Source: a virus. From it: DNA of 24,764 nucleotides. Of the stretch, positions 3,320-23,622 are shown piece after piece. Made by a program: the position numbers and the translations under genes. The DNA lies in IMG/VR virus record IMGVR_UViG_3300046529_000202, positions 1 to 24,764 of that record; one strand, written 5' to 3'. Numbering within the stretch: the first letter of the stretch is position 1; each line of letters begins with the position of its first letter. The notes beneath the pieces were generated by a model. That model searched no databases and was not told the origin of the DNA. It saw only the letters and a list, made by a program, of their open reading frames with translations.

Positions 3320-4152
3320 CCGTACAGCCTCTCCTTCTCGGAAATTGCATGTACCTCGACGGCGCGGTGCCGACGCTGATGCTGACCGCCATTGGTGACG
3401 CGCCGCCCCCGCCGCCTGGGACGGTTGGTGCAGTTCATTTCGACGGGTCTACATATCTCGATTTGGCGGCGCTGACGGCGACCGATAGCACGGTTCTTTC
3501 CTTCTCATTTTGGTACAAAAGCGCGGCCGATATTGGCGCGGGTGGATCGCCTCTGTGGGTCGGCGACACGGCCGGGCTTAACCCCGGAGCCGACGGAGGC
3601 GGGGCACTCCAGAATTTTGCGGAGGGAACATATCTGAGACAGTCAACCTCCTTCGCGAACGCACTTGTGTTTGGTACAACTGTTACCGCAACAAACAGTC
3701 AATGGCATAATGTCCTCGTAATGGCCGATGTTAATCACGCGGCAGGGTTACGGATTTTTAAGCTATACATAGATGACGTAGATGTAACCGACACGCCCGC
3801 AACAGATACCGGAGTGGCTTTTACGATGGTGGCTAACGGTCTTCAATTTACAATCGGTGGCGATACATTTGGCGATAATGTCACAATGGATTTCGCGGAA
3901 TGTTGGTGGGGGTTAAATCAGTTCATTGACTTTACTGTGTCGTCGAACCGCCGTAAGTTCATTTCCGCAACTAAAAAGCCAGTTGGTCTAGGGGCTGATG
4001 GCTCGCTTCCTACCGGCACGCCGCCGACGTTCTTCCTGAGCCTTACCCCTGCCGCGGCTCCATCGACTTTCGCAACCGACCTCTCAGGGAACGGCAACAC
4101 CTTCTCGATTACGGGGGCGCTAACCACCGCTTCATCGAGCCCGAGCGACTGA
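3316..4152 (+). CDS. LamG/concanavalin-like domain protein inserted in the tail nozzle locus
   Basis: The ATG at 3316 overlaps the nozzle stop by 4 nt (ATGA), so it is preferred over the in-frame ATG at 3304. The first 25 residues (CMYLDGAVPT at 11-20) resemble nozzle continuation sequence. After a proline run comes a jelly-roll-like domain: GAVHFDGSTYLDL (38-50), SFSFWYKS (62-69), and near the C-terminus TDLSGNGNTFSITGAL, the usual end of LamG-like domains on phage tails. Such domains commonly bind glycans, so a receptor-binding role is inferred. Roughly 3480-3970 is visibly AT-richer than the flanking genes, as in a recently acquired module. It ends at 4152, just before the GTG of the next ORF. 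Confidence 0.65.
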   Translation: MTVQPLLLGNCMYLDGAVPTLMLTAIGDAPPPPPGTVGAVHFDGSTYLDLAALTATDSTVLSFSFWYKSAADIGAGGSPLWVGDTAGLNPGADGGGALQNFAEGTYLRQSTSFANALVFGTTVTATNSQWHNVLVMADVNHAAGLRIFKLYIDDVDVTDTPATDTGVAFTMVANGLQFTIGGDTFGDNVTMDFAECWWGLNQFIDFTVSSNRRKFISATKKPVGLGADGSLPTGTPPTFFLSLTPAAAPSTFATDLSGNGNTFSITGALTTASSSPSD

Positions 4153-18850: not shown

Positions 18851-19959
18851 GTCTCCAGCATCGAAGGGTTGACGGTGTAACGGGCGACCTCGCCGTACTC
18901 GGCGTGAAGGATGATCGCCTTCATGTCGCGCTGGGCGCGGTAGCCCTTGTTGTGCGCCCATGCGTCGGCTGGCGGCAGGATGCGGAAGCTCTCAACGCTG
19001 CAACCAGGGAAGTCGAAGACCTTTTGTGAGTGGATGTGGCCGGTCCACCACGCGCGGTGCTCGGTCGCGCCCCACAGGGCGGCCCGGTCAGTCGCCATGA
19101 TACCCGGCAGCGCAGCGTACTTCGCCTCGTGGCCGTGGTGGGTGCCGATCAGGTTCTTGCCGAAGGTGAAGTAGTGGAAGTGGCTGGGCGTCGTGTCCAC
19201 GGTAATGCGTGGGTTGTTCTCATAGATGTTGTGCAGGCACTCCATGAGGAATATGGACGATGCGAGGTCGTGGTTGCCGATCTCGATGATGACCAGCACC
19301 TCGCGGTGGCGCGCGGCGGCGGTCTCGACCGCGTGCCGCATCGTCCGCACCGCGGCCCGCACCATCTTGGGGAACCGGCCATCGCTGTCGAGCATGTTGC
19401 GGGATGTCGGGGTCACGGCATCGAATGAGTCGTAGTGCATGAAGTCGCCGAGGAAGACGACCGCACATCGGTCGCAGGCCGGCGTCGTCCCTACGAGGTG
19501 GGTGATCGCCTTACCGAGAAGCGCCTCCCCGATGTCCAGGTCGTAGGAAGAACCTGTCTCGTGCTTCCACGAGAGCATGCCCATGTGGTGATCGCCGACC
19601 GGGTAGCAGGCCATGAGGGCGGGGTTACTAAACCCACTGTAAAGGAACCCTTCCGCGCCGTAAGGTATGGGCTCGGCGCGCGGCAGGTCTTCCGCCATCG
19701 CCTTCGCCCACTCCTGCATGTTGTGGATGCGCTCGGCGTCCTCGGGCTTCTCGATGATCCACTGCGCACGCACGTCACCGTCAGGGCCGTACAGCGTGGA
19801 GATACGGGCGACCTTGGCCGGGTCCGGTACGTGGGGAACCTGGTCGTCGGTGCGGCCCGCGAGAACGAACCGTTCGCTCGTGACCTTCCCCTTGCCGTCA
19901 GTCGTGTAGCCAGCACGCTTCATACGCAGCCGCTCGGCACCACCCATGCGCTTTTTCAT
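18847..19959 (-). CDS. Calcineurin-like metallophosphoesterase
   Basis: A 370-aa protein. The C-terminal two thirds hold the metallophosphoesterase motifs in order: GDHHMG (122-127), LGDFMHYD (170-177), EIGNHD (226-231), THHGHE (273-278) and WTGHIHS (305-311), which supply the two-metal site. The N-terminal about 110 residues are unrecognised and may be an HTH-like or accessory domain (GAERLRMKRAGYTT at 7-20). The reaction is phosphoester hydrolysis on a nucleic acid or nucleotide; the substrate is unknown. It lies between a methyltransferase and a deoxyribosyltransferase-like gene in the replication operon. The start overlaps the methyltransferase stop (ATGA). Confidence 0.82.
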   Translation of the reverse strand: MKKRMGGAERLRMKRAGYTTDGKGKVTSERFVLAGRTDDQVPHVPDPAKVARISTLYGPDGDVRAQWIIEKPEDAERIHNMQEWAKAMAEDLPRAEPIPYGAEGFLYSGFSNPALMACYPVGDHHMGMLSWKHETGSSYDLDIGEALLGKAITHLVGTTPACDRCAVVFLGDFMHYDSFDAVTPTSRNMLDSDGRFPKMVRAAVRTMRHAVETAAARHREVLVIIEIGNHDLASSIFLMECLHNIYENNPRITVDTTPSHFHYFTFGKNLIGTHHGHEAKYAALPGIMATDRAALWGATEHRAWWTGHIHSQKVFDFPGCSVESFRILPPADAWAHNKGYRAQRDMKAIILHAEYGEVARYTVNPSMLET

Positions 19960-20429
19960 ATCAGGTTTGCCAATAGAAGATCAGCCCGCATGAGCATCAC
20001 CCAGTAGGTTGCGCAGGCGTGCTTGTCACGAACCGCTGTCGTCGTACCAAACAACGGCAGCCAATATGGTTGGAGGAGTTCAAGAACCTTCGCCAACTTC
20101 TGATCGTGATCGTTCCATTTGAACGCCATGAGCGCCCCCGCTCGCGAGACACGATACGCTTCGCTTGCGGAACCCGCGATAATATCTCGAATGTCGGCCG
20201 TGGTGTGGTGCCCATAGTTCTTGGACATTTTTGCATTGGCGCCGAAGTTTACGTGCGGTGGGTCAAATACCACGAGATCATAACCCGCACCCACCTCCGG
20301 CGGAAGCGCACGGGTGTCAGCAACAATCGAGGGGGACACCTCTGCGCGCTTGTCAATGAATGTGGTAAGCGGGTTGTTGCGGTCAAACCACATTGCGCGG
20401 TTGCCGGCGAACAGGTCTAAGATTTTCAC
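19956..20429 (-). CDS. SAM-dependent methyltransferase (probable DNA modification)
   Basis: From the GTG at 20429 (GTGA overlap with the upstream ORF) the product is 157 aa. KILDLFAGNRAMWF (2-15) is a motif I (SAM-binding) variant and VVFDPPHVNFG (53-63) the DPPY-like motif IV; later FKWND (103-107) is typical of a small phage/bacterial methyltransferase family. There is no separate target-recognition domain. It may protect phage DNA from host restriction or modify a nucleotide; the target is not readable from sequence. An in-frame extension to 20555 is Arg/Pro-rich shadow sequence and was dropped. Confidence 0.72.
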   Translation of the reverse strand: MKILDLFAGNRAMWFDRNNPLTTFIDKRAEVSPSIVADTRALPPEVGAGYDLVVFDPPHVNFGANAKMSKNYGHHTTADIRDIIAGSASEAYRVSRAGALMAFKWNDHDQKLAKVLELLQPYWLPLFGTTTAVRDKHACATYWVMLMRADLLLANLI

Positions 20430-20617
20430 GCATCGTCCTTCTGCGCTGGGGCGCTCTCGTCGTATGGGAACACCTCGTCGAGCGGGGTCTCGCGATTGAC
20501 GTGGCGCCCGCGCGACCGGCCGGGCCGGAAGGGTTTGCTGCGGAAGTCGTACCATTCCTCGTTGTCGGCGAGGCGATCAAGCTGTGCAAACACGGGCTCC
20601 CTCCCTCTCTTAGACAT
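20426..20617 (-). CDS. Small hypothetical protein
   Basis: A 63-aa polar protein with an Arg-rich middle (FRPGRSRGRHVNRE) and an acidic C-terminus. No family recognised. Two starts are plausible: ATG at 20617, overlapping the nuclease stop by 8 nt but without a ribosome binding site, and GTG at 20593, which follows a strong AGGGAGGGAG site by a few bases and would give 55 aa. The stop overlaps the methyltransferase GTG (GTGA). The residues around NEEWYDFRSKPFRP look conserved-protein-like. Confidence 0.6.
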   Translation of the reverse strand: MSKRGREPVFAQLDRLADNEEWYDFRSKPFRPGRSRGRHVNRETPLDEVFPYDESAPAQKDDA

Positions 20618-21058: not shown

Positions 21059-21342
21059 GCCATTCCCGCAGGCGGCCGGGCAATGAAATCAGTCTGCGCG
21101 TCGCATTGTTCTTCGAGATAGCAGAGGTGCGCGTGGAACTGAGCGTCCCATCGCCCGAGGACGATCTGCCGTGCATAAGGATTGTCCGACAGGTGCTCGG
21201 CTTGGTGGACCGCTGCGGCGGCGAAGACCGTCACCGCGGCCATCGCGGTCGCCGGGCCGTAGGTCTTGAGGGCTTCGTTGAAGGTCTGCGCGAGGTCGTT
21301 GCGGACATTGAGGATGTCCTGTGCTGCCTTGTCGTCGCTCAT
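21055..21342 (-). CDS. Small hypothetical protein downstream of DNA polymerase
   Basis: From the ATG at 21342 (ATGA overlap with the polymerase stop) the product is 95 aa. The N-terminal half is helical (ILNVRNDLAQTFNEALKTYG, 10-29); an Ala/Val-rich stretch (ATAMAAVTVFAAAAVHQAEH) could be a buried helix or weak membrane segment; the C-terminus is mixed with two Cys. No family recognised. A longer frame to 21366 overlaps the polymerase more and lacks a better start. Confidence 0.6.
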   Translation of the reverse strand: MSDDKAAQDILNVRNDLAQTFNEALKTYGPATAMAAVTVFAAAAVHQAEHLSDNPYARQIVLGRWDAQFHAHLCYLEEQCDAQTDFIARPPAGMA

Positions 21343-22958
21343 TTTTTGTACCTCGTGCCGGCCCAACCTTCAACGCTGATCGGGACTTTGATCTCCTGAC
21401 TGTACCGGGTCGGTTCAGCCATGATCTGCTCATACAGCAAGTAGCCGCTGTGTGCAAGCGGTATCTCGCTCATGCACTCATCGTACACGGTGAGCACGAG
21501 CGGTTTGTGGGCGGCCTCCAGACGCTCACATGCTTCTACCAGGAAGCCGCGGGCGATCTTCTGTACGACGTTCTCACACAGGAGGCCACCGTATGCGTAG
21601 ATGGTCTTCCACTGGCCCGTCTTCGTCGCCTTGTAGGACCACCCCGGCCGGCGGTCGTTGACATCCCACGGCATCGAGCGCACGCAGGTCCGCGCGTCCC
21701 TGTACCACATGATCTGCCCGTCGGGGAGGTGGCAGGCGAGCGCATGGGGGTGCCATTGGTAGACAATCCCGTATGCCTCGGCGCGACCCTGTAGCTGCAT
21801 GGCGGCGAGCGCCGCGGCCTCCAGCGCCTTCCACAGCTTCGGCACCATCGGCGCCCACACCTCGCGGTAGGTACGGATGACACCCTGCGCGAACTCGTCA
21901 GGCTGGTCAGGGCAGTAGCGCGCCTTAAACTTGGCCCAGCCCATGCCGAAGCCGCAGCCCAGCACCGTGTTCTTGCCGATCTGGCGCTCCGGTACGTGGT
22001 CGTGCTTGTTGAGAGAACCCTTCGGCCGGTTGTAGATCGCCTCGGCCATGTCGAGGTACACATCGCCGGCTACCATCATCGCGGTCTTGTCGTGCTGCCC
22101 GGCGAGGGCGAGGACAACGCGCGCCTCGATCCCCGCGAAGTCTCCCGTGTTGAACTCGTGCCCGTCCGCGGAGATCAGTGCGTGCCGCAGGCCAGACGCC
22201 ACCGCGGCGATCGGGTCGCCGTAGAGGTCGGCTACGAAATCGGCGCTTCGGGTAAAAATAGCTGAGACAAGCTGTGCCGGGTCGTGACCTCCCTCGATTT
22301 TTCCTCGGGGGAAATTTGTGGGCTGGAGGAGGCGGCCGGCGGTGCGGCCGGTGCCGGCTCCGTGGTACTGCTGGGTGTAGCGCACCCGCCCGTCGCTGTT
22401 GACGCAGGCAAGCATGCGGCTGAGCTTCGCGATGCTCGCGGACCCAAGCACTGCCCTGATCTCAAGCACGCGACGCACGCTCTCTGGAACGGGTCGAGCA
22501 CCTTGCAGTTCGCTTGCCTCCATATCCGGCCCGTCGTCATCCTCCTCCTGGTCCTCCGCGAGCCCGGTAATCCCGAGCGCCTTCAAGTTGTCCTTCGCCA
22601 AGCTGTCGATCTCGAAGCCCTGGCTGTTGCACCAGGCAAGGAGCTTCGCGGTCTGTGCAACAGCGAGGCCGCCGGTCAGCGCGTCGAACTCGGCGGCGAG
22701 CGGCTTGGACGCCTGAGCCACGATGTCGAGACAGGCGTGGACGTAGCCGATGTCGATGCGTAGGCCGCGCTGATTGATGCGCTGGTCCAGTTCCCATACC
22801 CGACGCTCGTAGGGTGTGAGAGGCCCTATGGCATCGCTGAGTGCGATCTCGGTGCGCACGTCTTGCAGGCAATAGGCACCGACACGCTCCAGCGTCTCAG
22901 GGCTCCGGTCATAGGCGCCATCGGGGAACTGCCGGCGCCATTCAGCCTGTGTGGTCAC
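21339..22958 (-). CDS. Family A DNA polymerase, polymerase part with the end of the 3'-5' exonuclease domain
   Basis: Replicative DNA polymerase. The 539-aa product begins (GTG at 22958) in the last part of the exonuclease domain: AYCLQDVRTE (28-37) is Exo III (Tyr29, Asp33). The polymerase domain has TGRTAGRLLQPTNFPRG (203-219), motif A GDFAGIEARVVL (272-283, Asp273), motif B RQIGKNTVLGCGFGMG (325-340) and motif C VLTVYDECMSEI (488-499, Asp493), so it should be catalytically intact. Exo I and Exo II are missing here and lie in the separate ORF at 23155-23622. T7 polymerase carries all of this in one 704-aa chain. Both ends overlap neighbours (GTGA, ATGA), so the split looks fixed rather than a reading error. 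Confidence 0.9.
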   Translation of the reverse strand: MTTQAEWRRQFPDGAYDRSPETLERVGAYCLQDVRTEIALSDAIGPLTPYERRVWELDQRINQRGLRIDIGYVHACLDIVAQASKPLAAEFDALTGGLAVAQTAKLLAWCNSQGFEIDSLAKDNLKALGITGLAEDQEEDDDGPDMEASELQGARPVPESVRRVLEIRAVLGSASIAKLSRMLACVNSDGRVRYTQQYHGAGTGRTAGRLLQPTNFPRGKIEGGHDPAQLVSAIFTRSADFVADLYGDPIAAVASGLRHALISADGHEFNTGDFAGIEARVVLALAGQHDKTAMMVAGDVYLDMAEAIYNRPKGSLNKHDHVPERQIGKNTVLGCGFGMGWAKFKARYCPDQPDEFAQGVIRTYREVWAPMVPKLWKALEAAALAAMQLQGRAEAYGIVYQWHPHALACHLPDGQIMWYRDARTCVRSMPWDVNDRRPGWSYKATKTGQWKTIYAYGGLLCENVVQKIARGFLVEACERLEAAHKPLVLTVYDECMSEIPLAHSGYLLYEQIMAEPTRYSQEIKVPISVEGWAGTRYKK

Positions 22959-23158
22959 GCTACTGCTCGTAGGGCTACCGTGGTGCCACCTTCGGGCGCG
23001 TGTGGGTCAGGCGGTCCTACCTCGTGATCCATGCGGACCCCGTAAATTAACAGGGCGCGCTCGATGTCGAACAGTGTGTCCGCCGACGCGCCATTCTTGC
23101 GTAGCCGGCCATGACGAGCGACGAGCCCGTTTACCTCGATGAGGTCCAACTCGGTCAC
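22955..23158 (-). CDS. 67-aa ORF separating the two DNA polymerase halves
   Basis: GTG at 23158 overlaps the exonuclease stop (GTGA) and its TGA overlaps the polymerase GTG (GTGA). The 67-aa product (MTELDLIEVNGLVARHGRLR at the start, then ADTLFDIERALLIYGVRMDH) looks like a helical globular protein with a Pro-rich tail. No homing-endonuclease (HNH, LAGLIDADG, GIY-YIG) or intein motif was seen. It may be an insertion, or a subunit bridging the two halves; function unknown. Confidence 0.6.
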   Translation of the reverse strand: MTELDLIEVNGLVARHGRLRKNGASADTLFDIERALLIYGVRMDHEVGPPDPHAPEGGTTVALRAVA

Positions 23159-23622
23159 GGCCCTACCAACCTCGCCATCCATGTCTTGATCGTCATCGGC
23201 TTGGAGAGCGAGATCGTCAAGGCGCTGCCCTCCATGTCTTTCTGCTCGGTGAGGCCGAGCACCTGTGCGGCGGTCTCCAGCTTGGCCGGCAGCCCATTGT
23301 AGAGGCAGCGTGCCATCGTGCAGTCCCATCGCTCGACCGGAATGGGCGGCATGCCATATTGCCGCTCCATGATGTAGTGCCAAATCGCTTGCTCGAAGCC
23401 GGCGTTGTGGGCCTCGAAAATCACTTGGTCCCACACTGCATACTGGCGTAGAAGTTTGAGCAGATGGTCGTCAATGCCGGGGGTCCATATTGAGGAGTGA
23501 TGCCCGTCAACGACCCACGCCGCACACAAAATTTCGGTCGTCGGGTCTTCCGCGTAGCGCCACGCCCCCGCTTCCTTGAGGTCGCAATTGCTCGCAGTCT
23601 CGAAGTCGAGAGTGAGACGCAT
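23155..23622 (-). CDS. 3'-5' exonuclease domain of the family A DNA polymerase (separate ORF)
   Basis: A 155-aa protein equal to the N-terminal part of phage family A polymerases. LTLDFETAS (3-11) is Exo I (Asp6, Glu8), and FEAHNAGFEQAIW (69-81) is Exo II with Asn73 and Glu77 where many relatives have Asp. LPAKLETAAQVLGL..QKDMEGSAL (111-135) is the usual stretch after Exo II. It then ends in a short tail instead of running on to Exo III, which is in the ORF at 21339-22958. Proofreading would need the two chains to assemble. The start overlaps the stop of an upstream small frame (TGATG at 23620-23624 on the minus strand). Confidence 0.82.
   Translation of the reverse strand: MRLTLDFETASNCDLKEAGAWRYAEDPTTEILCAAWVVDGHHSSIWTPGIDDHLLKLLRQYAVWDQVIFEAHNAGFEQAIWHYIMERQYGMPPIPVERWDCTMARCLYNGLPAKLETAAQVLGLTEQKDMEGSALTISLSKPMTIKTWMARLVGP

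Follow-up and report, generated by a model that had tools for sequence, protein, structure and literature searches.

We propose that the family A DNA polymerase of a tailed phage has undergone an inherited gene fission. The cut runs through the proofreading exonuclease domain, between motifs Exo II and Exo III, and the two resulting genes, with a further ORF between them, would specify a two-chain proofreading enzyme produced by coupled translation. We assign this reading a probability of roughly 80%. The conversion of one ancestral gene into two, both conserved, was recognized from intact close relatives, from the presence of the same split in two viral species (that of the DNA analysed here and that of IMG/VR contig 3300049927_000065, hereafter L003), and from the dN/dS ratios of both parts. 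The coupling of translation, the docking of the chains and the proofreading activity are what we infer from the sequence.

The stretch of DNA analysed (the window; 24,764 nucleotides) is a 24.8 kb tailed-phage contig, in which tail genes occupy the plus-strand half. The split polymerase is encoded on the minus strand by the first (exo) and last (pol) of three consecutive ORFs. The coordinates of these ORFs and the GTGA overlaps on both sides of the middle, 67-aa ORF had been given in the initial annotation of this DNA, and the same positions were found in the sequence. The features of the locus are as follows.

23155–23622, minus strand: exo ORF of 155 aa with an ATG start; carries Exo I and Exo II in the N-terminal portion of the proofreading exonuclease domain
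23599–23607, minus strand: Exo I, D6-F-E8, in the exo ORF; no variation at D6 or E8 among 43 exo sequences
23392–23409, minus strand: Exo II, H72-N-A-G-F-E77, in the exo ORF; F76 and E77 invariant and N73 nearly invariant in the 43 exo sequences
23158–23196, minus strand: C-terminal tail of exo, MTIKTWMARLVGP, extending past the point where homology to close intact relatives stops; residues 145–153 predicted as a helix
23155–23158, minus strand: GTGA overlap of the exo stop and the start of the 67-aa ORF, read from the sequence
22955–23158, minus strand: 67-aa orphan ORF in the gap (candidate cargo gene), GTG start
22955–22958, minus strand: GTGA overlap of the stop of the 67-aa ORF and the pol start, read from the sequence
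21339–22958, minus strand: pol ORF, 539 aa, GTG start; carries Exo III and the remainder of the exonuclease domain, together with the complete family A polymerase domain
22917–22958, minus strand: N-terminal head of pol, MTTQAEWRRQFPDG, which close intact relatives lack; 11 of 14 residues common to L003
22860–22874, minus strand: Exo III, Y29-C-L-Q-D33, in the pol ORF

At both GTGA junctions, the start codon shares bases with the TGA of the previous ORF. No strong Shine–Dalgarno sequence was found before the GTG start of either the 67-aa ORF or pol in the window, suggesting that the output of both depends on coupling. The gene upstream of the triplet encodes an Enc34-type single-stranded DNA-binding protein, and the downstream genes are a small ORF, a RusA-like resolvase, a methyltransferase-like ORF, a DNA repair exonuclease and a nucleoside deoxyribosyltransferase-like ORF. 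A DNA search of isolates detected no isolate relatives of the window, and a search of genome_contigs detected no prophage relative of the polymerase.

The exo ORF matched positions 672–790 of the PHROG 17 'DNA polymerase' model (E = 2.6e-16), while the pol ORF matched positions 803–1231 (E = 4.9e-53), indicating that the two ORFs are successive pieces of one protein family. Homology of the pol ORF to the phage family A DNA polymerases (PHROG 17/PF00476) extended over the whole length of the polymerase domain, with up to 34% identity to annotated phage polymerases over 96–100%; the PF00476 match itself (E = 4.9e-6) was under the gathering score. In family A, polymerase and exonuclease usually reside in one polypeptide, although this feature is not strictly defining, and proofreading active sites are normally formed inside one chain. 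In the window polymerase, Exo I, Exo II and Exo III are all present, but they are shared out over two chains encoded in separate frames with a gene between them. The initial annotation had placed Exo I and Exo II in the exo ORF and Exo III with the polymerase domain in the pol ORF, with intact motifs on both sides and the cut between Exo II and Exo III, and this assignment agrees with the PHROG 17 positions and the motifs of both ORFs. Neither of the two observations that it had named as contrary evidence was made: the exo ORF is a piece of a PHROG 17 polymerase rather than an unrelated exonuclease, and the pol ORF, having no Exo I or Exo II of its own, does not carry a complete exonuclease domain.

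Two residues of the motifs deserve mention. Exo II of the window has Glu (E77) at the position of Asp in E. coli Pol I, and this Glu is found in 43 of 43 aligned exo sequences. The window has VYDE as its polymerase motif C (21477–21488) and L003 has VHDE, His being the usual residue at the second position.

A sequence-profile search of the exo half against the PDB gave nothing significant, and structure comparison was used instead. AlphaFold2, supplied with 43 sequences, modelled the exo half alone with a mean pLDDT of 92.1, the tail forming a less certain helix. The predicted exo half matched the exonuclease domains of two phage family A polymerases of solved structure, both single-chain enzymes: phiVC8 DpoZ (PDB 7pbk; 7pbk_B, residues 21–167; Z 9.3, rmsd 2.5, 123 aligned; VIA-align) and Thermus phage G20c Pol I (PDB 7r0k; Z 9.1). 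Alignments to other DnaQ/RNase H-like exonucleases were about equally good, which is usual for this fold.

The relative L003 (about 70%; exo 68% and pol 73% identical to those of the window) has its polymerase cut at the same place, with 4-base ATGA overlaps at both junctions, and gene order around the split polymerase is kept between the two phages. A search for the same split in related phages had been suggested in the initial annotation, and L003 provides it with a different gap gene, namely, one encoding a 171-aa protein of PHROG 11619 'DNA methyltransferase' (E = 7e-35). The two inserts, of about 200 nt in the window and about 510 nt in L003, showed no meaningful DNA or protein similarity. 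The GC3 of the methyltransferase insert was 0.55 against 0.74–0.80 in its flanks, as if this gene had been acquired recently. The shared cut indicates that the split predates the divergence of both phages and that the gap gene has since changed; the different genes found in the gap indicate that it holds exchangeable cargo. This split-with-cargo form was found in two viral species only. The dN/dS between the window and L003 was 0.20 for pol and 0.12 for exo, the latter being a rough value with dS at 2.4, near saturation, and these ratios indicate purifying selection on both halves. The same arrangement was found in IMG/VR contig 3300046809_000340, which is 99.9% identical to the window over 8.4 kb. 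Seven of the eight differences between these two contigs cluster at 20177–20285 (~110 bases), in the methyltransferase-like ORF (19956–20555).

We then compared the cut site between split and intact polymerases. In many of the closest intact relatives, a short turn, approximately LSKPN-KKG-YYDRSPETLERVxxYCxQD, leads from the end of the exo core to the Exo III helix. The cut site is a loop of variable length in intact relatives, and in more distant phages its length varies widely. The exo ORF ends in SKPMTIKTWMARLVGP in the window and in SKPMTMVSWMEKLI in L003, and the portion of the L003 tail aligned with that of the window is MTMVSWMEKLI. The pol ORF starts with MTTQAEWRRQFPDGAYDRSPETLERV in the window and with MTTQAEWRRRFVKGTYDRTPETLRRV in L003. 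Despite the different gap genes, 11 of the 14 residues of the pol head are identical and the DNA carries several synonymous changes, suggesting that the head is conserved as protein; this conserved head may have a docking role. In the intact polymerase of Ruegeria phage Tedan (L011, 3896–6358), the linker EIEAWMESKGITGDYRRQ resembles the exo tail plus pol head of the window (TIKTWMARLVGP plus MTTQAEWRRQ). Such a linker perhaps represents the ancestral loop, a resemblance that is suggestive only.

The 67-aa ORF had been described in the initial annotation as being without a known family and without an intein or homing-endonuclease signature, and profile searches likewise gave no match in Pfam, PHROG, NCBIfam or PADLOC. 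No homologues were detected in phages (E up to 10), plasmids or genome_contigs, and the sole match in viral_contigs was the 99.9% identical contig. An open frame across the insert is not improbable by itself (0.13 in base shuffles, for one given frame). The codon log-odds per codon was +0.05 for the 67-aa frame, −0.59 for the other two minus-strand frames and +0.32 for pol, which weakly favours the frame. AlphaFold2, run on the single sequence with no alignment, predicted two helices and a beta hairpin (pLDDT 78), and fold searches with this model yielded no match at E 0.001 or better. We take this ORF to encode a real small protein, carried as cargo.

Scanning of IMG/VR with the exo profile showed exo and pol in one ORF at 39 of 41 loci, the exceptions being the window's copy and L003, while the pol-profile scan showed 72 of 79 loci to be intact. 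In the pol scan, a second and distant split group was detected (L115, L121, L122, L123 and L137). A dedicated scan of this second clade gave 15 contigs (L115, L122, L148–L158, L174 and L193), all with the same break in the same loop; their exo and pol frames overlap by 20 nt, with no gene between. Compared with intact sister phages, a 10-nt insertion makes the exo stop (after QRLCKPQKVRAKRAK), and in most of the contigs the pol GTG has GTAAGGG upstream. The dN/dS of these halves was 0.035–0.08, indicating strong purifying selection. A third break, near 3900–3930 in L159, L160 and L166, lies ~20 residues upstream, likewise within the Exo II–Exo III interval, and carries the ATGAATAA start/stop overlap. 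These three contigs sit among intact sisters ~74% identical to the second group, and possibly do not form one clade. In the tree of the polymerase part, four state changes were needed, and the well-supported branches alone forced at least three. These results indicate that polymerases were broken between Exo II and Exo III on three or more independent occasions, in the window clade, the 15-contig clade and the three contigs, a count to be read as a guide because the trees were quick searches without bootstrap, with a long-branch warning from the program.

The starts in both insert-free split lineages suggest that their halves are made as separate chains. A programmed frameshift is possible in principle in these two lineages, and the GTG after GTAAGGG and the ATGAATAA overlap favour reinitiation. 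For the window, a programmed frameshift was ruled out by the unrelated DNA of ~200 or ~510 nt in the gap. Of 60 isolate records taken at even intervals down the ranking, Salmonella phage SE-W109 (KX649889; L197, 299–3396) alone had the match under two annotated polymerase genes. Its family A polymerase is annotated as two ORFs with the break after ~124 residues, which could reflect either a sequencing error or a further split.

Based on these observations, we propose the following mechanism. The loop linking Exo II to Exo III would have been split to become the end of one gene and the beginning of the next, and a further gene would have been seated in the break. Termination–reinitiation is an established behaviour of ATGA and GTGA junctions, and exo, cargo and pol would be translated in turn from one mRNA by this process at the 4-base stop/start overlaps. 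Such coupling would keep the synthesis of exo and pol close together and their amounts similar. The exo chain alone is predicted to fold as the core of an RNase H-like exonuclease, while the N-terminal ~45 residues of the pol chain would supply the Exo III helix (Y29 and D33) and complete the active site on docking, so that proofreading would be performed by an exo–pol heterodimer. A precedent for such reassembly is the split family B polymerase of Aeromonas phage 25, whose gp43A and gp43B co-purify and are active (PMC2988022). The exo chain could also act alone or be made in excess. The middle gene would be passenger cargo, and not a splicing or assembly factor.

The middle gene lies inside the coupled triplet with both overlaps kept, as might be expected if it were a functional part of the enzyme, such as an assembly or processivity factor. 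However, L003 has an unrelated methyltransferase in the gap and the two other split lineages have nothing there, suggesting that assembly probably does not require the middle gene, and we consider such a part for it very improbable. The gap might instead be removed at the level of RNA or protein, by a self-splicing intron or an intein, to give one continuous polymerase: an intron is present in the family A polymerase gene of phage LUZ24 (PMC3517423), and an intein is annotated in the polymerase of Salmonella phage Ent3. No Rfam intron was detected at E up to 1 in the locus of either phage, the only match in both loci being a frameshift element at E 0.91, far under the gathering score, and the RNA of the insert folded no better than shuffles (z −0.15). 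In addition, the inserts of the two phages differ in sequence and length, unlike a homologous intron, and each junction brings together a stop and a start codon, for which an intein would have no use. Restoration of a single chain by splicing is thus hardly to be expected, a small probability being left for an intron of an undescribed class.

The chains could also be functionally parted, with pol working without proofreading and the exo fragment being a free-standing nuclease or dispensable. The LUZ24-group phages and phiEco32 resemble the window in that the proofreading exonuclease and the polymerase come from different genes (PMC3517423). However, gp25 of LUZ24 is a whole exonuclease domain encoded several genes from the polymerase, with all three motifs (DLE, GHNILDYD and YCLQD) in one 170-aa chain, whereas in the window the active site itself is divided over two chains and no gene carries a complete domain of this type: exo lacks Exo III, and pol lacks Exo I and Exo II. 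The pol chains of both the window and L003 retain Exo III, which an exonuclease-free polymerase would have no cause to preserve, and the purifying selection on both halves also argues against parting. We therefore regard functional parting as unlikely. A 24.8 kb viral contig might be suspected of an error in sequencing or assembly, or of carrying a polymerase gene in decay beside another functional replicase, and the annotated polymerase break in the single isolate record of SE-W109 is possibly such an error. Against this reading stand the second contig, 99.9% identical over 8.4 kb, the 70%-identical species with the same split and other gap DNA, dN/dS values well below 1 and the integrity of all catalytic motifs. 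Error and decay, both already doubted in the initial annotation, are therefore extremely unlikely.

Split phage polymerases are already known. In Aeromonas phage 25, the family B polymerase is split into gp43A and gp43B, the chains of which co-purify and are active, and in 44RR an untranslated spacer instead of the homing endonuclease lies in the break (PMC2988022). Phage 25 resembles the window in having its replicative polymerase as two genes, with an extra gene (a seg homing endonuclease) associated with the split. It differs in polymerase family, since the window polymerase belongs to family A and is cut between Exo II and Exo III, and in the gene in the break, which is not a homing endonuclease but an orphan ORF without a family match in the window and a methyltransferase in L003. 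Split family A polymerases have been described in the OM43 phages MEP401 and MEP402 (PMC10580990) and in cyanophage Mic1, in two ORFs with a 298-bp spacer (PMC7156551). These also consist of two family A ORFs with a gap, which in MEP401 contains a small ORF of unknown function; in contrast to the window, however, the cut lies inside the polymerase domain and leaves the exonuclease whole, and an intron is either suggested or named in those papers. The open-licence literature searched yielded no description of a cut that passes through the proofreading site, between Exo II and Exo III, and holds swappable cargo.

Taken together, these findings point to a replicase whose catalytic residues come from two genes, a state apparently reached independently by three or more lineages of phages. 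A proofreading polymerase seems able to tolerate being severed between Exo II and Exo III, which looks like a natural site for such a cut. The exchange of the gap gene indicates that a replicase gene serves as a cargo slot, and in neither of the two cases seen is a homing endonuclease involved. Now that exo is a chain of its own, coupled in translation, its supply may allow the phage to tune proofreading and hence its mutation rate. The wider proposal, that Exo II–Exo III is a recurrent fission site, used by one lineage as a cargo slot in its replicase operon, and that exo supply tunes proofreading and mutation rate, is tentative, and we give it a rather low probability. The two halves would provide a ready split-enzyme pair in which proofreading could be added or withheld, and with which the question of how a severed replicase keeps its fidelity would be directly testable.
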